Positions 23,522-38,320 of a stretch of DNA of 38,603 bases are shown here, piece by piece; within the stretch, counting starts at the first letter, position 1; each line of letters starts with the position of its first letter. The stretch is from Thermanaerothrix sp. (GTDB lineage Bacteria > Synergistota > Synergistia > Synergistales > Synergistaceae): contig JAOACP010000020.1 of NCBI GenBank assembly GCA_026417795.1, positions 1-38,603 on the forward strand, read 5' to 3'. The translations under genes and the position numbers were made by a program. The notes under the pieces are model-generated. The model was not told where the DNA came from. It was given only the letters and a program-made list of their open reading frames with translations, and ran no database searches.

Positions 23522-25297
23522 TTACTGCAAAGTAGTTACGTCGGAGGCCTTCACGGGAGACGTGGGAACGTCGAGTATGTGAGGGATCACTATCATGGCC
23601 ACCTCGCCCCTCTCCTTGGTGCGGCTTCTGGACTTGAAGAGCTCCCCCAGAAGCGGGATATCGCCAAGCACCGGGATTTTATACTCCGAATACTTGTCCG
23701 AATTCCTGAAAAGACCTCCAACCACAAAGGGCTCTCCATCCCTCACCCTTACGTACGAGGTAACCTCCCTGGTGCTGGTCTGGGGAACCTGCTCACCCAA
23801 ACCACCCTTTATGTACTTGGTTATCTCCCCGGTCTTAAGGGTCATCTTTATGGTGATGAACCCGTCCCTGCCCACCACCGGCAGGAACTCCATGGAGGGC
23901 CCCACCCTCTCCTCCGAGTAGGTAGGGTTCCCCGCCTGGTCTCTGGCGGATATGTACTTAACGTTCTCCGTAAGGGATATCTTAGCCTCCTTGCCATCGG
24001 CCACCACCACCGAAGGGCTGGCCAAGGCCTTGCCCTTGTCGGCGGTCTCGAGGGCCCTTATGCCTGCGTCTATCATGCTTATGTTGCCGCTCTCCGCTAT
24101 GGCGCTTATGTCCGCCGCGCCAGGCTTGTTAACCCGGTTTGAGTCATTTTTGTATATCGATGGTTCGTTTACCCTGCTGTAACCTGCAACTCCACCTTTG
24201 CTATTGAATGAGAACCACCAATACCGGTAGACCGCGTTTATGACGGACTCCAACTCCTTCATGCCGTCATCCTTGACCTCCACTATCCTGGCCTGGAGCA
24301 TCACCTGCTTGCCCGGATGGTCAGCCTGGCTCAGGAACTTCGCCACCGCCTCCAGCTGCTCCGGCCTGCCGGTGACGTAAAGAAGCCGTAGACGCTCATC
24401 CACCACGATGGGCTTTGTTATGTCAAACAGCGTCTGCACCTGGCCGGAGATCTGCTTTATATCCCCATAGGATATCTCAAAAGCCTTGGTCTTCTCCTGT
24501 CCCAACGACTTAGCCAAAGCATCCGCCTTACCCACCAGAATTGTCTTACCCATTACCGCATAGGTTATGTCATAGGTCCTCATGAGATAGGCAAAGACCT
24601 CCTTCATGGGAACCCTCTTGACGGTAAGGGTTACGGGGCTCGCCGGCACGGTGGGGTCGCAGATTATGTTGTAACCGCTGAACTCCCCCAGCATACGGAA
24701 GACATCCTTAAGCTCCACATCCCTAAGGGCCAAATCCACAGGCACGCTAAGGGCTATGGGATCCTTGCCGGAGGAAAGGCGGGGCACCACCGTCGGGGGG
24801 GTCTTGGGCCCCTTCACGGGAGACAACTCGGGGTTGGAAGCCAGGGATACAACCAAACGATTCGTCCCCGCCCCGTAAACCGACTGAACCTTAACCGGTT
24901 TGGATGCCCCAACCGCCATCCACACCCCACCTTCATCGGGGCGGAAGCTTACGAAGTTGACCAAAGGATATTCAAAGACCACATTTCTCAAGGAAGGCTC
25001 CAGGGAAGCTGGGAAGAACAGCTCAAGGCCATCCTTGCCCTGCTGGGTCTTTGAGGGGGCAGGCACCATACTACCCGTAAACTCTAACACCGCAATATCG
25101 CTGCCCCCCTGGCCGCACCTAACGTCACTTATCATTGGTATCTTGTCGCCCGATGCCGCCTCGGTGGGCCCTCCTGGGGCCGCAAGGGACTGACCAGCTC
25201 CGAAGAGCAAAACCGCCAAACATAGGCCAAGGAAAGCCAAGCCCCTATTATTAAACAAGCTGAGGTAGCGATCTTTAATTGGACTGGAGCGCCGCAT
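23522..25297 (-). CDS. pilQ: Type IV pilus secretin PilQ
   Basis: The 591-residue protein has an N-terminal hydrophobic signal segment ending near AAPGG, an AMIN-like region (about residues 50-150), a Pro-rich linker, an STN/N0 domain (LALRDVELKDVFRMLGEFSGYNI and following), a secretin N1 domain (ISYGDIKQISGQVQTLFD) and the C-terminal secretin core (RVRDGEPFVVGGLF, KIPVLGDIPLLGELFKS, VAMIVIPHIL). It forms the outer-membrane pore for the pilus, which implies a two-membrane envelope. At about 590 residues it is shorter than many PilQ proteins (around 700), with one AMIN region at most. The ATG at 25297 has GGAGAGG seven bases upstream and overlaps pilP by 23 bases. It ends the pilM-N-O-P-Q run. 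Confidence 0.93.
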   Translation of the reverse strand: MRRSSPIKDRYLSLFNNRGLAFLGLCLAVLLFGAGQSLAAPGGPTEAASGDKIPMISDVRCGQGGSDIAVLEFTGSMVPAPSKTQQGKDGLELFFPASLEPSLRNVVFEYPLVNFVSFRPDEGGVWMAVGASKPVKVQSVYGAGTNRLVVSLASNPELSPVKGPKTPPTVVPRLSSGKDPIALSVPVDLALRDVELKDVFRMLGEFSGYNIICDPTVPASPVTLTVKRVPMKEVFAYLMRTYDITYAVMGKTILVGKADALAKSLGQEKTKAFEISYGDIKQISGQVQTLFDITKPIVVDERLRLLYVTGRPEQLEAVAKFLSQADHPGKQVMLQARIVEVKDDGMKELESVINAVYRYWWFSFNSKGGVAGYSRVNEPSIYKNDSNRVNKPGAADISAIAESGNISMIDAGIRALETADKGKALASPSVVVADGKEAKISLTENVKYISARDQAGNPTYSEERVGPSMEFLPVVGRDGFITIKMTLKTGEITKYIKGGLGEQVPQTSTREVTSYVRVRDGEPFVVGGLFRNSDKYSEYKIPVLGDIPLLGELFKSRSRTKERGEVAMIVIPHILDVPTSPVKASDVTTLQ

Positions 25298-25874
25298 CGT
25301 ATATCCTCTCCTTCCACCGGAACCTAACACCAGAGGTGCTTATGCTTACGACCCTTCCCCTGCCGCCATCGAAGGATGAGCCGACCCTCAGTATTACCGC
25401 CTGTCCGTCTCCCTCGATGTCCGCCACCGCCGCAGCCTTGTCTCCCAATATCATTATGGCCTTTACGGTGACCATAGGAGGCTGAACCTCCGGAGGAGGC
25501 GCTATGGGGCTGCCGCCAGGAAGCGCAGGAGCAGTCTCCAAGGGTGGCACCTCCACCGCCATGGGAGGCTTGTTAAACGGGTTTATGCCGGAAGCGGTGG
25601 CGAGCTGGGCGGTCTGCAAAGACGAACGCCTAAGCTCCATGTAAGCCCTTTGGAACGACACCTCATCCATGGCGTCCTTCTGGGCAACCTCCGGCGAGGC
25701 ACTCCGCAACGTGTCAGGGGACACGGAAGAGGCTCCGGCTATGAGATACCCCCCGTAAGCCTCACCCAGCACCAGAGCGCCGAAGATGATCGAGAAAACC
25801 CACCTCAGCCCCCTTCCTTCAGGGGTCCTGCGGCTTAGCAAGTAAAAGATGCTTTCAGTGTTCTCACCGGTCAC
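25275..25874 (-). CDS. pilP: PilP-like inner-membrane pilus assembly protein
   Basis: This 199-residue protein has one membrane helix at about 25-46, a periplasmic helical/linker part with ATASGINPFNKPP and a Pro-rich stretch, and a C-terminal small beta domain (VTVKAIMILGDKAAAVADIEG, GSSFDGGRGRVVSISTSGVRFRWKE) of the PilP/GspC homology-region type. It should connect the PilN/PilO ring with the secretin. Classic PilP is a lipoprotein; this one has a membrane helix and no lipobox, more like GspC, so the symbol rests on position between pilO and pilQ. The GTG start has GGAGG nine bases upstream inside pilO. Confidence 0.78.
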   Translation of the reverse strand: MTGENTESIFYLLSRRTPEGRGLRWVFSIIFGALVLGEAYGGYLIAGASSVSPDTLRSASPEVAQKDAMDEVSFQRAYMELRRSSLQTAQLATASGINPFNKPPMAVEVPPLETAPALPGGSPIAPPPEVQPPMVTVKAIMILGDKAAAVADIEGDGQAVILRVGSSFDGGRGRVVSISTSGVRFRWKERIYDAALQSN

Positions 25875-26376: not shown

Positions 26377-26965
26377 TACTAACACCCCCTCCTTGGATCT
26401 TGCCAAGGTACTCCTTCCAACCGGACACGGTACCCTTAGTGGTTACAGCCAACCACGTTTCCTTTCCCACCTTACGTTCCTCCGTCACGGGCATTGAAAT
26501 GGAGGAGAAGACGGGCTGGCCGTTCAAAGCGGTGCTGAAGGCAACCACCTTGTTCTGATCCTTGCCGGCAGCCCCAACGGAGAAAAGCCCATCCTTTATC
26601 TCCACACCCTCAAGGAAGAAATCACTGGGGGAAGCTCCATTTATGGTGGTTAACACCTCCAGCGCAGGGGTATCTCCCAGCAGGAAAGAGATACCGTCGG
26701 ACAAGGTCTTGTTCCTCCTCTCCATGACCTGTATCTGCATGGCCAGGCGCTCCGATAAAGACTGGGCCTCTTGCATGGCCACCTCCACTTCCTCCTTCTC
26801 GGCGCCCATCTTAAGAAGCAAATATGAAGACCAACCTATGTTGCCCAAACCTATCACCACGAAAAGGGTGAGCAACAAAACGGGCACAAACGCCACGTTC
26901 ACCTCCGTGGACGTGGCCTGCACAGGCCTTACCCCCTCGGGCCTAAGATCCAACATAACCTTCAT
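26363..26965 (-). CDS. pilN: Type IV pilus inner-membrane protein PilN
   Basis: At 200 residues this protein starts with a short cytoplasmic tail (VMLDLRPEGVRP) that carries the PilM-binding type of motif (usually xINLLP), one membrane helix (about 22-50), a coiled coil to about residue 90 and a periplasmic ferredoxin-like domain. PilN links PilM in the cytoplasm to PilO. Its ATG overlaps the pilM stop as ATGA. The binding motif is divergent (LDLRP rather than INLLP). Confidence 0.85.
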   Translation of the reverse strand: MKVMLDLRPEGVRPVQATSTEVNVAFVPVLLLTLFVVIGLGNIGWSSYLLLKMGAEKEEVEVAMQEAQSLSERLAMQIQVMERRNKTLSDGISFLLGDTPALEVLTTINGASPSDFFLEGVEIKDGLFSVGAAGKDQNKVVAFSTALNGQPVFSSISMPVTEERKVGKETWLAVTTKGTVSGWKEYLGKIQGGGVSNEKP

Positions 26966-27915
26966 TCGTCATCTACCCCCCTAAGCGCAAGGCCCAAGGT
27001 GACCTCCCAACCCCACCGCTCTTCCGGGGCTCCATCAATCTCCCAAAGCTCCCAGGGATCCACCATTTCAACCGGTATCAGCGTCATGGATGAAACCGCT
27101 TCCTTAATCTCCTCCGCATAGTGCAGACCATACCCGCCTATGTATATCTTACCGATCCCAAGCCCCTTGAGCTGGGTGTTTACAAAGTTGGCGGAGGAGT
27201 ATATCTCCCGGGCAAAGGACACGAACACATCCTCTTCGGGTTGTCCATTGCCAAAACCATACGATACGTTCCTATAAAGTATTCCGCTGTCCCTATAGGA
27301 CACCACTATAAAGGAAGAATAATAGCCAGCCATGACGTATAGGTTACAACGATCGCTTGGCGGCTCGGGACCCTGCATGGCCCTGAACGCGGCCATCACG
27401 CTTGGTTCAACCGCATCCACCATAAGGCCCGTCTTGCCGCAAACTTCGATGATGGACTCAACCGGCCTCGACCTGGAAACCGCGGCCACCGCATAAGTGA
27501 CATCCCCGCCCGCATCCAGCGGGTGCTCTATTTGGGCAACGTCGAAAACCGCCTCGCCGACTGGGAAGGGGAAGTGCTTATCAAAATCCATCTTAAAAAG
27601 CTCTCTCAGCCCCCTTCCACCCTCAACCCTAGGGAGCTGTATAACCTTCACCATCACGTCCTTCGCCTGGATGCCCAACACCGCGCTTCTGAACCACCGG
27701 GCTCCGACCTCTCTCTTGATCTTGAGCATACGGTTCTCCAACATGTCGGGATCCGCCCAAAGATCCCGCTGAGAAGGGGCCGTCTCCAAGTCCACCTCCG
27801 CCTTGGCCTTGACAGACAGCCCCCCCCGCTTGGTATCCAGGGCCAGGTATTGGATCTTTTCTCCCATGACAAAGAGCCCAGCCAGCCTCTTCTTCCTTCT
27901 AACCCAAAGCCCCAC
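26962..27915 (-). CDS. pilM: Type IV pilus actin-like protein PilM
   Basis: This protein, about 317 residues, is an actin/FtsA-like cytoplasmic ATPase-fold protein that docks on the PilN tail. Recognisable are LPRVEGGRGLRELFKMDFDKHFPFP (the family's helix that selects paired regions), YAVAAVSRSRPVESIIEVCGKTGL and VDAVEPSVMAAFRAM, and IYIGGYG near the C-terminus. The usual N-terminal GLDIGS nucleotide motif is degenerate (GLFVMGEK). I chose the GTG at 27915 (GGAGGGG eight bases upstream) over the GTG at 27924, which nearly touches the ribosome site. It starts 25 bases after the pilY1-like gene. Confidence 0.85.
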   Translation of the reverse strand: MGLWVRRKKRLAGLFVMGEKIQYLALDTKRGGLSVKAKAEVDLETAPSQRDLWADPDMLENRMLKIKREVGARWFRSAVLGIQAKDVMVKVIQLPRVEGGRGLRELFKMDFDKHFPFPVGEAVFDVAQIEHPLDAGGDVTYAVAAVSRSRPVESIIEVCGKTGLMVDAVEPSVMAAFRAMQGPEPPSDRCNLYVMAGYYSSFIVVSYRDSGILYRNVSYGFGNGQPEEDVFVSFAREIYSSANFVNTQLKGLGIGKIYIGGYGLHYAEEIKEAVSSMTLIPVEMVDPWELWEIDGAPEERWGWEVTLGLALRGVDDE

Positions 27916-27939
27916 TCTATTCACCCCTCCCGCCAGCGA

Positions 27940-30900
27940 TCATCGTCTTCTCCAGTAGATCCTGTCATATTTGCCCACCTTATCCTTGTCGGCCGGAACG
28001 TTAGGTGGCAGGGATATGGTCACAAGGCCGCTATCCCACGAGGCCTTGGCATCGTTGCCAAACGCCTTTTTCAGCGCATTATCGCTGATATCCGCAAACC
28101 GCTGAACTCCCATGTAGATCTTGTTCTTATATACGGTTATGCCAGTTATCTTAAGGTTCTCCACCTCCCGATACTTAAGTCCCCCCCATCCGCTCTTCCC
28201 GGTTCGCAGCTCCACCGCGTACAACCTGCCGGTTCCTGCCACGCAGGCCCCGCTTGAAGGCGTAAAGGTGGCAAAAAGGGCGTATCCGTTCTTTATGACC
28301 GGAGGAGTCGTAGGCCTCTCCCGGTTTGCCCCAGATTCATCCAGCGGCATATACCAGCCATCGGCGGATCCAGCAGTGGATTGGTCATAGGCGTTTACAC
28401 CGTTAAGATCACCGGTCTTTGTTATGGCTCCGCTTTCCGCTCTGGCCAGGGGGAAGGAGAACATGGCCGCCCTGGTGCCGGAGGGATTATCAAGCCCCCC
28501 GTCGTCACCGGTTACCCCCGCAACCCATAAGGCCCCTCCGCTTCTGCCGATGGCAAGGCTGTGAGAAATACCCATACCCCCTGGGATAACCCCAGAAGGA
28601 ACTATACACGAAACTTCCCCCCTTGATGCGCTGCCCCTCCAAACCGCAGAGGACAGATCGCCGAAGTAGAAGAGATCTATCTCCCTGCTGCCATCCGATG
28701 GCGCCAAAGCCTTAGGAGACCCCACCACCGACTTCATGTTCTCATGGGTAAACCTACCCCGCACCTCACCTGTGAAAAGGGAAGTAAGATATACCGCCCC
28801 CTGTTTGGACATACCGGAAGGCCCCGGATAACCATTGCCCATCAACAAAACGTCTTCCCCTCCATAAGTCCCCACCACAGGGGTTGAGGTGGAGAAGAAA
28901 AGCTCCCGGTAGTCCTTCTTAGTCCCATAAGCCTGTGCGTGCGAAAGGACCTCCCTGCTCTTGGGACTCCATATCACCACTTTCGGGGAGGCGACAAAAC
29001 CGGGCATCGAGGCATCACCCTTGAAGTCGAAGACCTGATTCTCCACCGCCCAAAGGAAAGAGGGAGACCACGGGGAAGTCACGTCCATGGCATATAATCC
29101 ACACCCACCCCTTCCAAGGAGCCCCAACAACACATACCTACCCTCCCGGGTCTTCTCCACCACCAATGGACCGTCCAAAAGGTAGCGGGGAACCGAGTAG
29201 TAGGACTGCATGGGATCGGTGGTCTGAAGCCAAGCGCCCTGGAACTGTTTAAGCCCCACAAGACGGCGCCCCTCAAGCACGTTTGGAGGTGCGAAGGCCC
29301 AACGCTCAGATCCATTGGAAACATCGAAGGCATGCAACAACCCCAAATTATCCTGGGCAAAGAGAGCTATGTCCTTCCCTCCGTTAGAGTTGTACACGGT
29401 AAGCTCCACCATACCGGCGTGGTAGACGTCTCCCATCTTGTACCTCTGGCCGGCCCTCTTATGGGGATAGTTCTCATCCAAATCCTCGTCCCATTTGATC
29501 TTAAACCCGTTGGCGTCGTACTCAACGGTCCTGTCCCCCATAAGCCACCGGAGGAAAAGCTCCGCCTGGGTGGAGGCGCTTGCGCCGCTGGAAGAAAGGC
29601 CCATTTGGGAGGCCAATTGGTCTAAATAGCTGAAAGAACCGGTGTTCAACACCTTTTTAAGCCCCTCGCCGTTGACCACCGCAAAAAGGGACCGCTCCGA
29701 ATGCTCCTTAACGTTCAGCATCTCAGCGGCGCTCCACTTCCTCGTCTGGTTCCCGTCCTTATCGATCTCGTAGCACACGACATCCCCCTTCCACTGCATC
29801 GCCTTCGTGGAATTGGGCACCGAAAAGGCGGAGGAGTAAACGAAGGCCTCCCCATCCTTGCGAGGACTTACAACTGGAGCTCCACCGGAACCGGCGTTGC
29901 TGTTTATGCTCTCAAAAATACGCTTGAAGGCATCCATAAGGGCAGCCACATCGTTGGCATAAAACGGCGACGCAGAGCCGTTCTCCAACCCGTCATCTCC
30001 CACGTCCGCCATCCTCTCAAGAGTTCGCTTAAGCTGCCTACCCTTATCTGAAGTAGGGTTAGGGTTTACAAATGCCACCACAAAGACCTTAACCGGCTGA
30101 GACTTCCTATAAGCACCAGTGGCGGGATCAACCCCCCATCCCGAGTAAGATATCCTGGAGTTGTGAAGCGCCCTTACCGCCTCCACCGGATCGGTGTTGT
30201 CCCGGTTCTGTCCCCCAGCGGTCAGTATTATGGCGTAGTTGCCCTGACACCATTGCTTTATGTATGTGGGTTCACTGCTTGGACGAGAATCGTTGGTATC
30301 GTACACCCCGCTCTTCCTGGCACAGAAGAAATCACGAAGGGAGCCTTCCAGCTTTCCATAGTTAGCCCCCTCGGAGAATGCTATGGACTGGGTAAGAGGA
30401 CGCTTGCCGTCAAAACGAAGCTCCTTGTTGCTGGCATCCTCTCTACCATCAAACCACTGGATAACCTTGTCCCTCATCTGGGTGGCTACATAGGAGCCTC
30501 CGGAAAGCTGGTACATCTGGGCAGGCTGGACTATGAACATGGCCCTCTTGCTGGCCTCGTTGGTGCTGATCAAAACCCCGCGGCTCAACCGAACGCTCCT
30601 GCCGTAATAAGTCATACCACTACCACCGGTACCGGACGAGTTGGGAGAGTCATAACCAAAACGGCCGTTGGGCCAGCTGGTCTCGCGATAGGCGAAAGTC
30701 CCGTTCTTGGTGATGCCCCGATACCAATCCGCCCAAGGTAGACTGTTATCTCCCCAGCTGGAATAATCCTGCTGGACATAGGTGGCCACGCCGATGACCG
30801 CGTCTCTTACCACCTCTGGAGAACGCAAAAGACGCCACAGGACCAGTTTCATCTTAAACGCCCTGCTGTCGTTGGGAACCAGGCCATAGGATTTATTACC

Positions 30901-31401
30901 CCGCTTGTACCTCAGATAATCGTTATCCTGGGCGTAACAGTCGGGATCGTCCTCCCTGTTGTTAGATGAATCTAAATCCCTGCCCCAATATTGGTACTGC
31001 TCTCCGGTATACATCTTATACGGCTGAGATCCATCGCCATAGGTACACCAGGTCTCCGAGGACTCGTAAAAGTAATAAGGATCCCCAACCACCGGATTGT
31101 GAGGAACCGGATTAGGAAGAACGTAGTAAGGGGAGGAGCCGGACGGCCCCGAATAATTGGTGCCCGACGCAGGAACATCGTTGACGTCCCCACTGGTGGA
31201 CCACAGCATCGACGCGCTGGTATCTATGAGCAGAAACACATTAGGAGAGACCCCCTCTCCTATTCCTTTAGGGGCCTCTTTAAAGAAGGGGTTAAGGGCG
31301 ACATCGTCCGCCCCCATCAATCCTCCAGCTGATACAACCCCCAAAAGGGCCAGGGCAGCAAGGATAACCCATGGCTTGCGCAAAACTTTATTCACCATCA
31401 T
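27940..31401 (-). CDS. pilY1: PilY1-like pilus tip adhesin with VWA and beta-propeller domains
   Basis: The 1153-residue protein has a signal peptide (membrane segment about 12-27, cleavage probably near GGLMGADD), an N-terminal von Willebrand factor A domain starting with FLLIDTSASM (MIDAS DxSxS), and a C-terminal PilY1 beta-propeller (LFAQDNLGLLHAFD, LLGLLGRGGCGLYAMD, VLLMGNGYPG, IDLFYFGDLSSAVWRG). PilY1 proteins sit at the pilus tip, act in adhesion and mechanosensing and prime assembly with minor pilins. The third MIDAS position, normally TDG, reads LTAGG (see findings). The ATG at 31401 has AGGGAG eight bases upstream and overlaps the preceding pilin gene region; GTG 31410 or ATG 31407 are alternatives. 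Its place after three minor pilin genes is typical. Confidence 0.9.
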   Translation of the reverse strand: MMVNKVLRKPWVILAALALLGVVSAGGLMGADDVALNPFFKEAPKGIGEGVSPNVFLLIDTSASMLWSTSGDVNDVPASGTNYSGPSGSSPYYVLPNPVPHNPVVGDPYYFYESSETWCTYGDGSQPYKMYTGEQYQYWGRDLDSSNNREDDPDCYAQDNDYLRYKRGNKSYGLVPNDSRAFKMKLVLWRLLRSPEVVRDAVIGVATYVQQDYSSWGDNSLPWADWYRGITKNGTFAYRETSWPNGRFGYDSPNSSGTGGSGMTYYGRSVRLSRGVLISTNEASKRAMFIVQPAQMYQLSGGSYVATQMRDKVIQWFDGREDASNKELRFDGKRPLTQSIAFSEGANYGKLEGSLRDFFCARKSGVYDTNDSRPSSEPTYIKQWCQGNYAIILTAGGQNRDNTDPVEAVRALHNSRISYSGWGVDPATGAYRKSQPVKVFVVAFVNPNPTSDKGRQLKRTLERMADVGDDGLENGSASPFYANDVAALMDAFKRIFESINSNAGSGGAPVVSPRKDGEAFVYSSAFSVPNSTKAMQWKGDVVCYEIDKDGNQTRKWSAAEMLNVKEHSERSLFAVVNGEGLKKVLNTGSFSYLDQLASQMGLSSSGASASTQAELFLRWLMGDRTVEYDANGFKIKWDEDLDENYPHKRAGQRYKMGDVYHAGMVELTVYNSNGGKDIALFAQDNLGLLHAFDVSNGSERWAFAPPNVLEGRRLVGLKQFQGAWLQTTDPMQSYYSVPRYLLDGPLVVEKTREGRYVLLGLLGRGGCGLYAMDVTSPWSPSFLWAVENQVFDFKGDASMPGFVASPKVVIWSPKSREVLSHAQAYGTKKDYRELFFSTSTPVVGTYGGEDVLLMGNGYPGPSGMSKQGAVYLTSLFTGEVRGRFTHENMKSVVGSPKALAPSDGSREIDLFYFGDLSSAVWRGSASRGEVSCIVPSGVIPGGMGISHSLAIGRSGGALWVAGVTGDDGGLDNPSGTRAAMFSFPLARAESGAITKTGDLNGVNAYDQSTAGSADGWYMPLDESGANRERPTTPPVIKNGYALFATFTPSSGACVAGTGRLYAVELRTGKSGWGGLKYREVENLKITGITVYKNKIYMGVQRFADISDNALKKAFGNDAKASWDSGLVTISLPPNVPADKDKVGKYDRIYWRRR

Positions 31402-31406
31402 CTCCA

Positions 31407-32036
31407 TCACTCCCTGCCTATGATGCCTTCCTCCACGGTCATGGTCCTATCCTCCCCCAAGGCAAACCCGGACCTCTTGGCGGTGCTCCTTATGACATAG
31501 CTTGGGGGTCTGAACTTACCGGCCTCCCCAACGGAACCAACCCCACCGGAAGAGCCTGGCATGGTGGGCTCCAGGGTAACATCGGCGGTCATGGCATAAA
31601 CCAAAGCACCAAGACGAGGAGGGATACCAGCCGCATAGGACGGCACGTTAGGATAGTCAACCCTGTATATGAAGGTAGTAACTGTAGTACCATCCTGTTC
31701 GGAACGGAACACCCCTTGATCTCCGGAGGAAACCGCCACCAGATTGCCGAAGGGCACGTTTATCCCCTTGATCGTCTTGGAGGACAGCACGCCCGTTGCG
31801 GATAGATCCGCGGCGGAATCGTAGTCAGGGAACGATTTATCGGTGGTGTTAGCCAACAGCCACGCCTCAGCGGCGCTGATCCCGGACTGGGCGGATATAT
31901 AAAGCTTTTTCTGCTGCACCACGCTCTGGGTTGTGGAGAACAGGTTGTTGGCCAAGAAAAAAGCGGTTGTGACAAGCCCCAACCCAGCCAGCATTATCAC
32001 TAAGACGGTGGGCAGTGCAAATCCAGGCCTTCTCAT
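31407..32036 (-). CDS. PilX-like minor pilin
   Basis: The 209-residue protein begins with a very short class III leader, MRRPG, then FALPTVLVIMLAGLGL: prepilin peptidase would cut after Gly5. Position +5 is Thr rather than Glu, as in PilX/GspK-type minor pilins that cap the fibre. A PilX-like segment follows (AQSGISAAEAWLLA). The rest is low-similarity globular sequence. The ATG overlaps the stop of the preceding gene as ATGA and its own stop overlaps pilY1, so the minor pilins and adhesin are translated together, in keeping with their joint role in priming. Confidence 0.8.
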   Translation of the reverse strand: MRRPGFALPTVLVIMLAGLGLVTTAFFLANNLFSTTQSVVQQKKLYISAQSGISAAEAWLLANTTDKSFPDYDSAADLSATGVLSSKTIKGINVPFGNLVAVSSGDQGVFRSEQDGTTVTTFIYRVDYPNVPSYAAGIPPRLGALVYAMTADVTLEPTMPGSSGGVGSVGEAGKFRPPSYVIRSTAKRSGFALGEDRTMTVEEGIIGRE

Positions 32037-32887
32037 CGATTCCTCAACCTCCAGGAGGTCCTGACGTGCATCAGATATCCCTTGCTGTCCTCAGAAGAAA
32101 GGGTGGTACCGAACGAAGAAGGCCAGGTGGACGGCAGCCCCTTGCCAGGACCGTCCCCGCGGCTTAAGACGTGCAACGTAAGCACCCCCTGGGATAGTCC
32201 AAACCTTATATCCGCATAACCAACACCAGTTCTGGGTTGAGGAGCTCCTAACGATACATCCTCCACGTACAGCTGGCCGTCCTTCTGCTCCGCCACCAAA
32301 GCTCTGGGGTAGAACACCTCATCAAAGGGAGCCACCACCACGTCTTGGGAGTGAGGATTTAAAAGCGATACCGCCTTGCCATTGACAGAATTGATCCGCA
32401 AAGGCAGGTTTGCGGATGGGAAGACAAGCCACCCCTTCATGGTAGCGGGCGAAAGGGAATAAAGATCCGACGGCAGGCTCTCGGCAAGCTCCAGGTTGAC
32501 CACCCCGTTGGGGGGCACTGAAGCGCGATCCATGGACACTATGGTTACGCCGCTCGGAACGGCGTACAGCAACCTAAGCTTCTTCGAGGAGTCCACGACC
32601 TCCACCAGATCATTCCAGAAACCAAACTGAGAAATCCCAGGGAAGGCCTTGGAGGGCTTGTCGGCTGAAACTCCAACCGCGGCGTTCAACACCCAGTCCT
32701 GAAGGACCGCCACAGCTTCCTCCGCCCTCATCCTTGCCCTAGAAGAGAGCTCTATCCTCTCGTAATGGGATATATAAAGCCAAAACATGGCAACCGAACC
32801 CACAAGCGCTATGGCCCCCACCAGCAGGGCCATCAGGACCTCCGCGAGGGAGAAGGCCCGACTAGTTGACCTTAAGGGCCGGATCAC
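32033..32887 (-). CDS. PilW-like minor pilin
   Basis: The 284-residue protein has an N-terminal prepilin motif, RAFSLAEVLMALLVGAIALVG: cleavage would be after Ala11, leaving Phe12 as +1 and Glu16 as the +5 Glu. Ala instead of Gly at -1 is uncommon but tolerated in some prepilins. Size and position fit PilW/PilJ-type minor pilins. The start is GTG, inside the end of the preceding pilin gene (26-base overlap). The remaining sequence is not recognised in detail. Confidence 0.78.
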   Translation of the reverse strand: MIRPLRSTSRAFSLAEVLMALLVGAIALVGSVAMFWLYISHYERIELSSRARMRAEEAVAVLQDWVLNAAVGVSADKPSKAFPGISQFGFWNDLVEVVDSSKKLRLLYAVPSGVTIVSMDRASVPPNGVVNLELAESLPSDLYSLSPATMKGWLVFPSANLPLRINSVNGKAVSLLNPHSQDVVVAPFDEVFYPRALVAEQKDGQLYVEDVSLGAPQPRTGVGYADIRFGLSQGVLTLHVLSRGDGPGKGLPSTWPSSFGTTLSSEDSKGYLMHVRTSWRLRNR

Positions 32888-33203
32888 GGGGCACCACCCT
32901 CCTGAACTCCAAAGACCTGGCGCCGGAGGCTGAGTCCCAGCTTACGGTCACCACCAGAACCCTGTCCCCCGAAACATCGTAAGAGGCGCAGGAGAGGCTG
33001 TAGGGAGAAATGCTGGAAGGGGGGTTGCCCCCCCACTCCAGCGCATCCAAAGCCTCTCCCGCAAGCCACAGGGCATTCTCCTGCTGGGAGGTTCGCATGG
33101 CCATGGCGTGGGACATCATTATGGAAGCCCCCAGGACCAGCAACACCACCGCCAGAATGACCAGCGATATGAGAGCCTCCACCAAGGAGAAACCCCGTCT
33201 CAC
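32862..33203 (-). CDS. PilV/PilI-like small minor pilin
   Basis: The 113-residue protein starts MRRGFSLVEALISLVIL, with prepilin peptidase cleavage after Gly4 and Glu at +5 (Glu9). The helix runs to about residue 33 and a small C-terminal domain (ISPYSLSCASYDV, VLVVTVSW) follows. It resembles PilV/GspI-type minor pilins. The start is GTG with GGGGGTG five bases upstream, 17 bases after the pilA stop. Confidence 0.8.
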   Translation of the reverse strand: MRRGFSLVEALISLVILAVVLLVLGASIMMSHAMAMRTSQQENALWLAGEALDALEWGGNPPSSISPYSLSCASYDVSGDRVLVVTVSWDSASGARSLEFRRVVPRDPALKVN

Positions 33204-33220: not shown

Positions 33221-33682
33221 TTAACGAACCTGCATGTAAATCCAGTTCTCGTTGTTATACGCGGTGGTGTTGACGGCGCTGTCAGTACCACCAAACAGAT
33301 TCTTGTCCTTAGAGGCCATGTCCTTCAGCTTTGCCTTAACGCCGTTGCCATAGCTGGTCACATTGCGGCCAATGTAGTAGTCGTTGCTAACGGCAAGCAT
33401 CTTGAACTGGGCGGTGTCAACTCCAGAGCTGCCCATGTAGGACTTAAGGTTATCCAGGTTATTGGTCCAGCTGCCATTGTCCGCATAGTACATCATGGCG
33501 GCGCTCTTCACGGTCCTAAGATCGCTTACGATACGGGTGGCCTCCGCCTTATCGGTGCCGCTGCCAGCCACAAGAAGCATCGCTCCAGCCAGTATGCCGA
33601 TGATGATGATGACGATCAGGAGCTCCACCAACGTAAAACCCTTCCGCTTCTTACCCAACAACCGCATCCACATCTGCTTCAT
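33221..33682 (-). CDS. pilA: Major type IV pilin PilA
   Basis: The 153-residue prepilin has a 15-residue basic leader ending KKRKG, followed by FTLVELLIVIIIIGILAG with Glu at +5 (Glu20): a type IVa N-terminus. The mature protein of 138 residues has the N-terminal helix and a small globular head with no cysteines, so the usual C-terminal disulfide loop is absent. The ATG has GGAGGAG six bases upstream, preceded by eight A residues: the strongest ribosome site in the pilus locus, as expected for the major subunit. It lies 27 bases after pilC. Confidence 0.92.
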   Translation of the reverse strand: MKQMWMRLLGKKRKGFTLVELLIVIIIIGILAGAMLLVAGSGTDKAEATRIVSDLRTVKSAAMMYYADNGSWTNNLDNLKSYMGSSGVDTAQFKMLAVSNDYYIGRNVTSYGNGVKAKLKDMASKDKNLFGGTDSAVNTTAYNNENWIYMQVR

Positions 33683-33709: not shown

Positions 33710-34918
33710 CTACATGAGGCTTTGGATGGCACTTATTATGGGGAAGAATATGGACATGGCGACCACCGCCACCACTCCGCCTACGAACAGTATCAACATG
33801 GGTTCCAACGCCGAGGTAAGGGCCTTCACCTTCTCCTCCAGCTCCATGTCATACCAGTCCGCCACCTTCTCCAGCATCTCCTCCAGCTTACCGGTCTCCT
33901 CCCCTATGGCCACCATGTGGCATACCATGGGGGGGAAGAGGTTCTCTCTCTTGGCCACCACGTTAAGCGGCACACCCTTCTCCGCACCCTCCTTAAGCTT
34001 CTGAAAGGCTCCGCCCACAAAATGGTTGTTAGCGACCCCCGCTGCCATATCAAGGCACCGAAGGATCGGCACCCCAGAGGACACCAGCGTACCCAAGGTC
34101 CTAAAGCTCCTGGCCATTATCCCCTTGTAGATGACATCTCCTATCAAAGGGATACGAAGCTTAACCCGGTCCCACCTAGCCCTGAACGAGGGTATCTGCT
34201 TCAGCAACATCACCAGAACCACCAAAATCGCCAACACCAAGCCTATAAGAAGCCCGTTATCCCTGGCCCCCAGGGCAAAGGCAAAAACCAACTTCGTCAC
34301 CAGCGGCAACTCTATCCCCATCTGATTAAACACCTGAGAGAACCGCGGTATTACCACGAACACCAATATTCCCATGACCATCACGCAGATGGACAACACC
34401 ACCATGGGATAGACCAACGCCGAGGAGATCTTCTTCCGCAACGCCTCCTGTTTCTCAAGCAACGTGGCCAACCGCTGAAGGCTCAAGTCCAGGACGCCGC
34501 CCTCTTCCCCCGCCCTTATGAGGGATATCACCAAAGGAGAGAACGCCTTATCGGCGCTCATGGCGTCCGCCAAGCCACGGCCTGCCATAACACCCCTAGA
34601 TACGGTCTCAAAAGCCGAGGCCAAGGCCTTGCTGTGAACCTGTTCCTTTATGATGTTAAGAGCCCCCGCCACGGTTATGCCGGCAGATATCATGGTGGAA
34701 AGCTGCCTGAAGGCCACCGCAAGATCCTTCAGCTTCACCTTGGGCTGGAGCAGCGCAAGGCCTCCAAATAGCTTGCGCTCCCCCTCAGGGACTTCCTTCA
34801 ACTCCAAGGGCACCCAGCCCCTGCCCTTCATGAGGGAAAGGGCGGCCTCTCTGGATCCCGCCTCCAAGACCCCCGACAAATCCCCCTCGGCGCTCCTAGC
34901 TCGGTACTCGAACTTCAA
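33710..34918 (-). CDS. pilC: Type IV pilus inner-membrane platform protein PilC
   Basis: The 402-residue protein has the two T2SSF domains of PilC/GspF (about 68-190 and 270-392), with FRQLSTMISAGI, LIRAGEEGGVLDLSL, the repeat FRTLGTLVSSGVPIL and AIGEETGKLEEML, and three membrane helices (about 168-190, 222-240, 372-395). It couples the PilB and PilT motors to pilin assembly. The start is TTG; a strong promoter lies 40-70 bases upstream, between pilT and pilC, so pilC, pilA and the following genes can be transcribed apart from the motor genes. Confidence 0.93.
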   Translation of the reverse strand: MKFEYRARSAEGDLSGVLEAGSREAALSLMKGRGWVPLELKEVPEGERKLFGGLALLQPKVKLKDLAVAFRQLSTMISAGITVAGALNIIKEQVHSKALASAFETVSRGVMAGRGLADAMSADKAFSPLVISLIRAGEEGGVLDLSLQRLATLLEKQEALRKKISSALVYPMVVLSICVMVMGILVFVVIPRFSQVFNQMGIELPLVTKLVFAFALGARDNGLLIGLVLAILVVLVMLLKQIPSFRARWDRVKLRIPLIGDVIYKGIMARSFRTLGTLVSSGVPILRCLDMAAGVANNHFVGGAFQKLKEGAEKGVPLNVVAKRENLFPPMVCHMVAIGEETGKLEEMLEKVADWYDMELEEKVKALTSALEPMLILFVGGVVAVVAMSIFFPIISAIQSLM

Positions 34919-34998: not shown

Positions 34999-36084
34999 TC
35001 ATCGCACCAAGACAGGTCCCCCCAACAGGTGTTCCACTTCCTTCGGGTCAAAGCAGTACTGCTCCACCGCCTCCCTGGAGAGGATCCCCTCCCTGTAGAG
35101 CCTCACCAGATCCTGATCCATGGAATGCATGCCAATGGAGCTTCCCGTCTGCATCATGCTCTTAATCTGGGACGTCTTGCCCTCCCTTATGCAGTTTCTC
35201 ACCCCAGGCGTCGCCCAAAGAAGCTCCGTGGCGACAACCCTGCCGCCGCCGTCCAAGGGTATCAGCTGCTGAGAGCATATCCCTATCAGTATGTTGGCCA
35301 GCTGAAGCCTAACCTGTTGCTGTTGATAAGGGGGAAACACGTCCACGATTCGATCCACCGTTTGGGCGGCGTCAGGGGTGTGCAGCGTGGCCAACACCAA
35401 GTGGCCAGTCTCCGCCGCGGTTATGGCCGCCGAGATGGTCTCCAAGTCCCTCATCTCTCCGATCATTATCACGTCCGGGTCCTGACGCAAGACACGGCGC
35501 AAAGCCTCGGAGAATGACATGGTGTCATCCCCAACCTCCCGCTGGTGTATCATGGCCCGCTCAGATCTAAAGACGTACTCTATGGGATCCTCCACCGTCA
35601 CTATGTGGCAAGATCGGTTCATATTGATCTGCTGGATCAGGGCCGCCAACGTGGTGCTCTTACCGGATCCAGTGGGCCCCGTGACCAGGAAAAGTCCCCT
35701 CATCTTCTCCGCCACCTGCCCCATCTCCCTCGGCAGCTTCAACTGATCCATGGTCCTTATGTCCGTGGAGATGGAACGGATGGCTATGGCGGGATTCCCC
35801 TTCTCAAAGAAACAGTTCACACGGAAACGAGGCATGGTGTCCAAAGACACCATGGTGAAACTGAAATCCAACTCCCTCTTCTGGGTGAACTCCTCATGTC
35901 TTCCGGGAGGCAGAATATCCCCCAGATACTCCATCACGTCGTTAGGAGTAAGGTCCGGAAGATCAAAGGGTATCAACATCCCGTCTATTCGCAGCATGGG
36001 AGGCCTGGAAGAACTTATGTGAAGGTCGCTGGCCTTTCGCTTTACCATCTCATATAAAAGCACTTTCAATGACGGAACCGACAT
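34999..36084 (-). CDS. pilT: Type IV pilus retraction ATPase PilT
   Basis: The 361-residue hexameric ATPase powers pilus retraction and twitching. It has an N-terminal PAS-like domain (KASDLHISSSRPP), Walker A GPTGSGKST, the Asp box around VEDPIEY, Walker B DVIMIGEMRD, the His box GHLVLATLHT, and the PilT-specific AIRNLIRE motif as GVRNCIREGK. The ATG has GGAGG six bases upstream, 26 bases after pilB. The PilT motif sets it apart from extension ATPases. Confidence 0.95.
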   Translation of the reverse strand: MSVPSLKVLLYEMVKRKASDLHISSSRPPMLRIDGMLIPFDLPDLTPNDVMEYLGDILPPGRHEEFTQKRELDFSFTMVSLDTMPRFRVNCFFEKGNPAIAIRSISTDIRTMDQLKLPREMGQVAEKMRGLFLVTGPTGSGKSTTLAALIQQINMNRSCHIVTVEDPIEYVFRSERAMIHQREVGDDTMSFSEALRRVLRQDPDVIMIGEMRDLETISAAITAAETGHLVLATLHTPDAAQTVDRIVDVFPPYQQQQVRLQLANILIGICSQQLIPLDGGGRVVATELLWATPGVRNCIREGKTSQIKSMMQTGSSIGMHSMDQDLVRLYREGILSREAVEQYCFDPKEVEHLLGGPVLVR

Positions 36085-36110: not shown

Positions 36111-37784
36111 TTACTGCATGGTCTCAGACATCATCTCTTCCACACTAGTTATACCATCTAAGACCTTTTTAATTCCAGCCTTTCTCAAAGTTGTCATTCC
36201 CTTGGATATGGCTAACTTTCGGATCTCATACACCGGGGATCCCTCGGCGATGGCCCTCTTTATCTCCTCATCCACCATGAGTATCTCGAAAAGGGCGGTA
36301 CGTCCCTTGTATCCGGTGTTCCTGCAGTCGTCACACCCCACCGGAGCGAAAACCCTGGTCCCCGGCGGCAAATCAAGGGATCTTGCCACCGCATCAGGCA
36401 GCTCAATCTGCTTCTTGCACGAACTGCACAACCTCCTAGCAAGCCGCTGAGCTACAACGCCAACCACGGCCGAAGAGACCATAAAAGGCTGTATCCCCAT
36501 GTCCAAAAGCCTTGCCACCGCGCTGGGGGCGTCGTTGGTGTGCAGTGTGGAGAGTACCAAGTGACCGGTCAACGCGGCCCTTATGGCCAGCTGGGCGGTC
36601 TCTTGATCCCGGATCTCTCCTATCATTATCTTGTCCGGGTCCTGCCGAAGGATGGACCGCAAGGTCTCACTGAACGTAAGCCCTGCCTTTTCATTCACCT
36701 GCACCTGGGTAATCCCGGGCATCGTGTACTCCACCGGATCCTCCACCGTTATTATGTTCACATCCGGCGTGTTCATGACCTCAAGCAGCGAGTAAAGGGT
36801 GGTGGATTTACCGCTCCCCGTGGGCCCGGTCACCAGTATGATGCCGTACGGAAGGGACGCCATGTCCTCAAGAAGAGCCCTCTCATCGGGGCTGAAGCCC
36901 AACCGCTCCAATCCAACCATGGCCTTATCCTGGTCCAACAATCGCATGACTATCTTCTCGCCAAATATGGATGGAAGGGAAGAAACACGAAGATCCACCC
37001 TCTTGTTGCCAACCTTTAACAAGATCCTTCCGTCCTGGGGCCTCCTGCGCTCCGATATGTCCATTCCGCTCATTATCTTTATCCTGGAGCAAACAGCCGG
37101 ATGCAGGTTCTTGGGATACTCAAGGGAATCAAAGAGGGCGCCGTCTATCCTGTAGCGCACCCTCGCCCCCCTTTCAAAGACCTCTATGTGAATGTCAGAG
37201 GTACCTTCTTTAACTGCCTCCTCCATGATCGAGTTGACCAGCTTCACCACCGGGGCATCATCCACCCCCACGTCCACCAGGTTCAACGACGAATCGGATG
37301 GTTTGTCCTCCATCACCTCCACCATGGCTTCCTCCAATGTGGTGTGAACCCGGTAGAACTGCTCAAACGCCCGCCTTATCTCGGAGACCATGGCGATGCT
37401 AAGCTCTATCTCCCTACCAGTTGCCATCTTTAATTCGTCCAGCGCCACCACGTTAAGGGGATCCGAAGTGGCCACAAGAAGTCTGCCATTATCCAACAGG
37501 CTTAAAGGCACCACTTCAAGGCGCCTCGCCATGTTCTCAGGCACTACCTTTAATACCTCCGGGGTGGGCTTGTACCTGGCAAGGGACACCAAGGGCACCT
37601 TGAGCTGCCGGCTCAGGGCTTCAGCTAAGTGTTTCTCCGAAACCCAACCGTTCTTCACCAGTATCTCACCAAGCCGCATGGAGCTCACCTTCTGCTCCTT
37701 AAGCGCCGCGTTCAAGGTGCTCTCAGTCAAAACGCCGGCCTGTATCAAGATGTCTCCCAATCGCATGTGCTTGGTATCCACCAT
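36111..37784 (-). CDS. pilB: Type IV pilus extension ATPase PilB with MshEN c-di-GMP-binding domain
   Basis: The 557-residue motor drives pilus extension. The N-terminus carries two 24-residue MshEN motifs (residues 8-31 and 37-60, RLGxxL..xG..xxxxLxxxLxxQ) separated by exactly five residues, the known cyclic-di-GMP binding layout of MshE. The ATPase core has Walker A GPTGSGKST, Asp box VEDPVEY, Walker B KIMIGEIRD and His box GHLVLSTLHT. Two Cys pairs (CSSC and CDDC) form the zinc site typical of GspE/PilB. The ATG has GGAGG eight bases upstream. It is the first gene of the pilus locus. Confidence 0.95.
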   Translation of the reverse strand: MVDTKHMRLGDILIQAGVLTESTLNAALKEQKVSSMRLGEILVKNGWVSEKHLAEALSRQLKVPLVSLARYKPTPEVLKVVPENMARRLEVVPLSLLDNGRLLVATSDPLNVVALDELKMATGREIELSIAMVSEIRRAFEQFYRVHTTLEEAMVEVMEDKPSDSSLNLVDVGVDDAPVVKLVNSIMEEAVKEGTSDIHIEVFERGARVRYRIDGALFDSLEYPKNLHPAVCSRIKIMSGMDISERRRPQDGRILLKVGNKRVDLRVSSLPSIFGEKIVMRLLDQDKAMVGLERLGFSPDERALLEDMASLPYGIILVTGPTGSGKSTTLYSLLEVMNTPDVNIITVEDPVEYTMPGITQVQVNEKAGLTFSETLRSILRQDPDKIMIGEIRDQETAQLAIRAALTGHLVLSTLHTNDAPSAVARLLDMGIQPFMVSSAVVGVVAQRLARRLCSSCKKQIELPDAVARSLDLPPGTRVFAPVGCDDCRNTGYKGRTALFEILMVDEEIKRAIAEGSPVYEIRKLAISKGMTTLRKAGIKKVLDGITSVEEMMSETMQ

Positions 37785-38137: not shown

Positions 38138-38176
38138 GGTATATGGTTATGGTATATGATTGTGGTATATGGTTAT
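38138..38176. repeat. Three tandem 13-base repeats, GT-rich
   Basis: Copies at 38138-38150, 38151-38163 and 38164-38176: the first and third are identical (ggtatatggttat), the second differs at two positions (ggtatatgattgt). Degenerate relatives continue on both sides, for example gttatggggatatgggtat at 38221-38239. Confidence 0.75.
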
Positions 38177-38282: not shown

Positions 38283-38320
38283 AAAAAGCAAGCAGCCTTC
38301 CAGTCATACTGGAAGGCTGC
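38283..38320 (-). terminator. Rho-independent terminator of the rRNA operon
   Basis: A perfect 12-bp stem (38309-38320 with 38292-38303) and a 5-base loop are followed on the minus strand by ttgc and a run of five T. It starts 13 bases after the 5S 3' end and closes the rRNA operon. Confidence 0.9.

Follow-up and report, generated by a model that had tools for sequence, protein, structure and literature searches.

In this study, we asked whether the extension motor of a type IV pilus in Thermanaerothrix sp. (Synergistota) is a receptor for c-di-GMP, and whether such binding governs pilus extension. The gene lies in the window, the 38,603-nucleotide stretch of DNA analysed here, which is contig C20 of a host genome of 1.92 Mb in 139 contigs. 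Our findings favor a model, which we consider likely, where PilB is an extension motor with a c-di-GMP-binding MshEN domain at its N-terminus, binding permitting or promoting extension.

Table 1.— Features of the pilus cluster and of PilB in the window (residue numbers are those of PilB).
Feature	Positions	Strand	Basis
pilB, type IV pilus extension ATPase, 557 aa	36111..37784	-	Open reading frame and translation; PF00437 469.5 bits
MshEN motif 1, residues 8-31; contacts R8 L9 G10 L24 L28 Q31	37692..37763	-	11/11 specified consensus positions
Five-residue spacer KVSSM, residues 32-36	37677..37691	-	Translation; length 5 as in PMC5013675
MshEN motif 2, residues 37-60; contacts R37 L38 G39 L53 L57 Q60	37605..37676	-	10/11 specified consensus positions
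MshEN C-terminal subdomain, residues 62-146, including Asp108	37347..37601	-	PF05157 77 bits
T2SSE ATPase domain, residues 175-552; Walker A GPTGSGKST and four cysteines	36129..37262	-	PF00437, translation
pilT-like retraction ATPase, gene after pilB	34999..36084	-	PF00437, without MshEN domain; named by family and position only
pilC, inner-membrane platform (T2SSF)	33710..34918	-	Profile match
Pilin-like gene, N-methylation motif	33221-33682	-	Profile match
Pilin-like gene, N-methylation motif	32862-33203	-	Profile match
Weakly PilY1-like protein	27940-31410	-	Match under Pfam cut-off
PilM	26962-27924	-	Profile match
Secretin (PilQ-like)	23522..25330	-	Profile match

The pilB gene opens a cluster that continues with pilT-like, pilC, two pilin-like, weakly PilY1-like, pilM, and secretin genes (table 1). 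Its product combines the traits of a PilB extension ATPase, namely a T2SSE core, Walker A, four cysteines, and a place in a type IV pilus cluster; its top PDB relatives are Thermus thermophilus PilF and Geobacter PilB, and the full-length model (pLDDT 81.6) matches GspE, PilB, and PilF structures, as expected. A GspE-type identity, a working label that we gave to 15 motif-less paralogues independently of any family search, was rejected, the window protein falling outside their 15-row clade in the ATPase tree. Upstream of pilB, on the same strand, lie 5S and 23S rRNA genes, the only families recovered by Rfam at gathering thresholds in the window, so that none of the known riboswitches precedes pilB. 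The interval between the 5S rRNA and pilB (38138-38176 and 38292-38320) carries a 13-base G/T-rich repeat in approximately three copies and, downstream of the 5S rRNA on the minus strand, a terminator-like hairpin of 13 pairs.

The first-pass annotation had singled out 37605-37763 as the site of a tandem MshEN motif, and these coordinates correspond exactly to PilB residues 8-60 (residue 8 starting at 37763, residue 60 ending at 37605). Against the consensus and the six contacts per motif taken from PMC5013675, the claimed repetition at residues 8-31 (RLGDILIQAGVLTESTLNAALKEQ) and 37-60 (RLGEILVKNGWVSEKHLAEALSRQ) fits, as does the five-residue MshE-type spacer, a length described in PMC5013675. 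Together the motifs satisfy 21/22 specified positions, the best of 20,000 shuffles of PilB reaching 13. Homology, not chance, accounts for this fit, since phmmer aligns residues 6-144 with Vibrio cholerae MshE (5HTL) at E 2e-16, the comparison with MshE that had been proposed as a check. Trp47 in motif 2, at an (L/V/I) core position, is the sole deviation in either motif. The label "textbook" needs one correction, in that the Pfam MshEN model misses both motifs. In fact, PF05157 covers residues 62-146, the C-terminal subdomain, and its cut-off is also passed by motif-less paralogues (e.g. G032:C12, 30.3 bits); therefore the Pfam name is no evidence for c-di-GMP binding, and it is the motif that points to it. 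Elsewhere in the host genome, a PF05157 search found no MshEN domain above the cut-off; other matches (13.4-14.2 bits against a cut-off of 23.1) were discounted, among them one on C14 in a frame read as FlhF.

All 12 ligand-contact residues (R/K/L, L, G, L, L, and Q, twice) are kept in the window PilB, and the predicted fold agrees. The N-domain model (pLDDT 90.6; helices 9-15, 21-33, 38-44, and 50-61) finds its best structural match in 5HTL, MshE with c-di-GMP (Z 19.4, rmsd 2.0, 138 residues aligned), which also ranks first in Foldseek; it displays a four-helix bundle and an α/β subdomain with the contacting Asp, placed by alignment at Asp108. Its counterpart in the alignment with T. thermophilus PilF GSPII-B is Asp266, a residue that touches the ligand (PMC11731258). 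Some of the 50 loci from a contig scan, mostly planctomycete, Verrucomicrobia/Lentisphaerae-type, and rumen bacteria, were used solely as rows in the alignments behind structure prediction.

How the domain relates to studied carriers of the module is instructive. V. cholerae MshE shares with it the two 24-residue motifs, the spacer of five, the six contact types per half-site, and the fold; MshE, on the other hand, serves the MSHA pilus, whereas our PilB sits in a pilB-pilT-pilC cluster, and its motif 2 carries Trp47 at an L/V/I position. T. thermophilus PilF is likewise a PilB-type motor with N-terminal MshEN and the equivalent Asp, yet has three such domains (GSPII-A/B/C) instead of one, and Lys167, Leu196, and Arg268 of GSPII-B correspond to Arg, Arg, and Leu110 in the window PilB. 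C. perfringens PilB2, C. thermophilum PilB, and M. xanthus PilB are also reported to bind c-di-GMP through their N-domains (PMC11656802; PMC11731258). The N-domains of Xanthomonas XpsE (2D28) and PilB (7LKO) have the same fold; XpsE has lost the contacts and, according to PMC5013675, does not bind c-di-GMP, nor, according to PMC10333796, does Xanthomonas PilB, which works with PilZ and FimX. A Xanthomonas-type PilB dependent on PilZ and FimX was rejected for our protein, whose contacts are intact and whose genome holds a single PilZ match, beside frames read as FlhB, FlhA, FlhF, FlhG, CheB, CheA, and CheC (names from our own reading of the translations, not from a family search).

The first-pass annotation had also suggested searching the genome for GGDEF and EAL proteins, naming a lack of diguanylate cyclases as an outcome that would tell against it. 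That case does not hold: there are 13 GGDEF matches, with GG[DE]EF present in ten and absent in three, three EAL matches at two places, and 11 HD_5 matches, ten above the cut-off. Judged by its sequence alone, the host should be able to make c-di-GMP. A search of the genome for c-di-GMP-I riboswitches gave no match, as in the control genomes. With its motifs, contacts, and fold, the N-domain of the window PilB very likely binds c-di-GMP.

We then compared pocket and GGDEF proteins across the phylum. A total of 185 genomes were searched for PilB and GGDEF, the N-termini were taken, and the 12 contacts were scored, with R, K, and L all accepted as the opening residue of a motif, following PMC11731258; a pocket was called lost at 8/12 contacts or fewer, and a genome GGDEF-less when no PF00990 match reached E 0.001. 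GGDEF matches occur in 172 of the 185 genomes. PilB counts set aside the 15 motif-less paralogues. Of 142 genomes with a PilB match at E 1e-140 or better, 137 were scored (G002, G117, G144, G091, and G156 being left out), and G007, G024, and G038, with matches weaker than E 1e-140, complete the 140 scored. Unscored rows include those of G002 (L076) and G117 (L202), each with a frame break, and G144 (L175), with a stop in the core, whose motifs read intact by eye. Nine of the 13 GGDEF-less genomes were scored, G156 being left out together with G015, G159, and G160, which have no PilB match at E 1e-140.

The pocket is lost in all nine scored genomes without a GGDEF match (contact scores 1, 1, 1, 3, 3, 4, 4, 5, and 7) and in two of the 131 with one. 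The remaining 129 keep at least 9/12 contacts: 12 genomes score 9, 32 score 10, 12 score 11, and 73 score 12. The two exceptions are G033, with one GGDEF match and 8/12 contacts, and G143, with three GGDEF matches and a score of 2, where PilB (L239) starts past the bundle, shortly after the upstream gene stops. Among the six scored genomes with a single GGDEF match, five keep 11 or 12 contacts, the sixth being G033. The nearest congener by PilB (G002, 95% identity) has 13 GGDEF matches and a pilB (L076) whose reading frame breaks inside motif 2, near position 1545 of that locus, through either a true loss or a sequence error; what stays open is a frame of 515 residues that holds the ATPase. 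G143 and G033 show that the pocket can go without complete GGDEF loss, to which G002 may add unless its sequence is faulty.

Is the loss confined to the pocket? In each of the nine scored GGDEF-less PilBs, retention of the contacts falls below that of ATPase columns matched for conservation (values between 0 of 5,000 draws and P 0.0034; G033, P 0.131). Walker A, Walker B, and the four cysteines are retained in all nine, while G007, G024, and G038 show variation in the His box. The sharpest cases are G014, G028, and G004, where conserved contact columns are kept at 6/11, 4/11, and 4/11, respectively, against 12/14, 11/14, and 8/14 of the other conserved bundle (MshEN_N) columns, 21/25, 21/25, and 20/25 of MshEN_C columns, and 179/199, 178/199, and 170/199 of ATPase columns; the comparison left out the partial rows L118, L122, L123, and L238, with L076 and L239 outside the reference set. 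In these same three genomes a second ATPase of the family adjoins pilB, in the manner of the window's pilT. In the PilB-like ATPases of G155 (L240), G158 (L241), G157 (L244), and G038 (L141), all from genomes without a GGDEF match, the bundle appears to be missing, judged by the lack of homologous sequence before the C-subdomain in frame, and the second MshEN subdomain is still recognizable; on that judgement, their scores of 1-4 reflect unrelated letters. ATPase divergence is also faster in GGDEF-less lineages, most of all in G007, G024, and G038, so that part of the motif loss in such lineages may be general rather than specific, and the evidence from these three is weaker because the whole protein is more divergent.

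On a tree of PilB's own ATPase core, used as a stand-in for the species tree, GGDEF loss takes three changes (G004/G014/G028, the genus of G007/G024, and G038/G155/G157/G158) and pocket loss five; the branches of G007/G024 and of G038/G155-158 are long, and the placement of the latter is unsure. A model of dependent loss, a rough script that starts from a root having both GGDEF and an intact pocket and that forbids regain, beats the independent one (LR 19.2 and 29.0; 13.3 and 20.1 without the G038/G155/G157/G158 group). A stricter independent-pairs sign test finds three pairs, a number with which 0.05 is out of reach, 2.9 of them concordant on average and none opposed. Coupled loss of pocket and GGDEF in some three lineages is thus strongly supported by these comparisons, yet short of proof, because there are only about three independent losses.

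What could such a site do? One c-di-GMP would span two half-sites, the first guanine in motif 1 and the other, in contact with Asp108 of the second subdomain, in motif 2; in MshE each motif holds one guanine, and in V. cholerae biofilm and pilus production are tied to binding (PMC5013675). As diguanylate cyclases raise c-di-GMP, binding would rearrange both subdomains along with the first turn of helix 1, a conformational change that we infer from PilF GSPII-B, given that in PilF the first turn of helix 1 unwinds, the subdomains reorient, and impaired binding reduces twitching (PMC11731258). The bound PilB would then permit or promote extension and, as c-di-GMP drops, extension would lessen and PilT retraction dominate. 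The first-pass annotation had predicted such control of extension by c-di-GMP; the binding site that it presupposed is strongly backed by the motif, 12/12 contacts, the fold match, the GGDEF proteins, and the coupled loss, whereas control itself is probable and, like its direction, one that we infer from MshE, PilF, and M. xanthus PilB. C. perfringens PilB2, which binds c-di-GMP with high affinity without effect on ATP hydrolysis (PMC11656802), counts against control of extension.

Another use of the same site would be structural. PMC11731258 raises this option for PilF GSPII-B, whose KD of 6 nM lies under usual cell concentrations; c-di-GMP would be bound constitutively, as a cofactor for PilB or for a partner surface, with no switch. 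For our PilB this appears unlikely: both motifs begin with Arg, which PMC11731258 ties to weaker binding (K167R, 150 nM; MshE, 500 nM), and GGDEF-less lineages retain the main ATPase motifs of PilB, with a second ATPase adjoining in G004, G014, and G028. Because these lineages keep the motor and, in those three, the adjoining ATPase, c-di-GMP seems not indispensable to the machine, and they argue that the motor can dispense with it. Given that Arg, not Lys or Leu, starts both motifs, PMC11731258 would predict a moderate rather than low-nanomolar affinity for the window PilB, which would suit a switch. A motif that is an inherited relic, without binding in the host, is a reading to which the frame break in congener G002 lends something, yet the persistence of at least 9/12 contacts in 129/131 scored GGDEF genomes over deep divergence makes it very improbable. 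Just as improbable is a different natural ligand, be it another cyclic dinucleotide or a protein: MshE does bind cGAMP, if weakly (KD 330 uM; PMC5013675), and the Xanthomonas PilB N-domain binds a PilZ protein instead (PMC10333796; title of 7LKO), but in the phylum the pocket tracks GGDEF proteins, and the only PilZ match of the host sits among frames read as flagellar and chemotactic.

The coupled loss itself could reflect lifestyle, all pilus regulation having relaxed in some lineages and each of the two, GGDEF genes and pocket, having decayed for reasons of its own, and the longer branches of GGDEF-less PilBs and the few independent events are in its favor. We nonetheless regard it as rather improbable, given that in G014, G028, and G004 the contacts go while neighboring MshEN_N, MshEN_C, and ATPase columns mostly stay, and that 11 or 12 contacts persist in five of the six scored single-GGDEF genomes. 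Loss of the pocket in bacteria seemingly unable to make c-di-GMP suggests that the site is a working control input. We lean, with some reserve, toward the reading that the Synergistota PilB pocket is kept only while the cell is able to make c-di-GMP and that the motor outlives it, c-di-GMP being a detachable input and not a structural cofactor, and the natural variants would then be constitutive PilBs. That reading includes several routes of loss: change at contact points (G014, G028, and G004), full degeneration (G007 and G024), and apparent loss of the bundle alone (G155, G157, G158, and G038). Natural PilBs without the pocket could fit the class of the MshE triple mutant Leu10/Leu54/Leu58, which does not bind and complements fully, suggesting constitutive activity (PMC5013675).

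The domain and its function are already known elsewhere; what is new is the comparative test of coupled loss over a phylum. In the literature searched we found no report of such coupling, and for Synergistota none of c-di-GMP binding by PilB or of c-di-GMP and pili, with the proviso that the supplementary MshEN tables of PMC5013675 may already name Synergistetes; a word search of PMC3910556 (Thermanaerovibrio velox) returned neither pilus nor c-di-GMP. Separately, L124 (2506-3981, minus strand), L125 (4486-5910, minus strand), and L126 (424-1944, plus strand) are ATPase-less open frames of 475-507 aa built from three consecutive MshEN domains, with two copies in G042 and one or more in G051; many contact positions are kept, and these are possible stand-alone c-di-GMP binders. 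PilZ, the other widespread c-di-GMP receptor module (PMC5013675), has matches in 77/185 genomes, and the same search found none among the 13 GGDEF-less genomes; with GGDEF in 172/185, many GGDEF-bearing members of the phylum are without a PilZ receptor. With the window PilB, a receptor class already described elsewhere reaches a phylum in which we found no study of c-di-GMP and pili and, since 108/185 genomes have no PilZ match, PilB may be the main recognizable c-di-GMP receptor in many of its members. Whether c-di-GMP is a regulator or a fixed structural part of such motors, a question raised in PMC11731258, is one to which the coupled loss brings a natural experiment.
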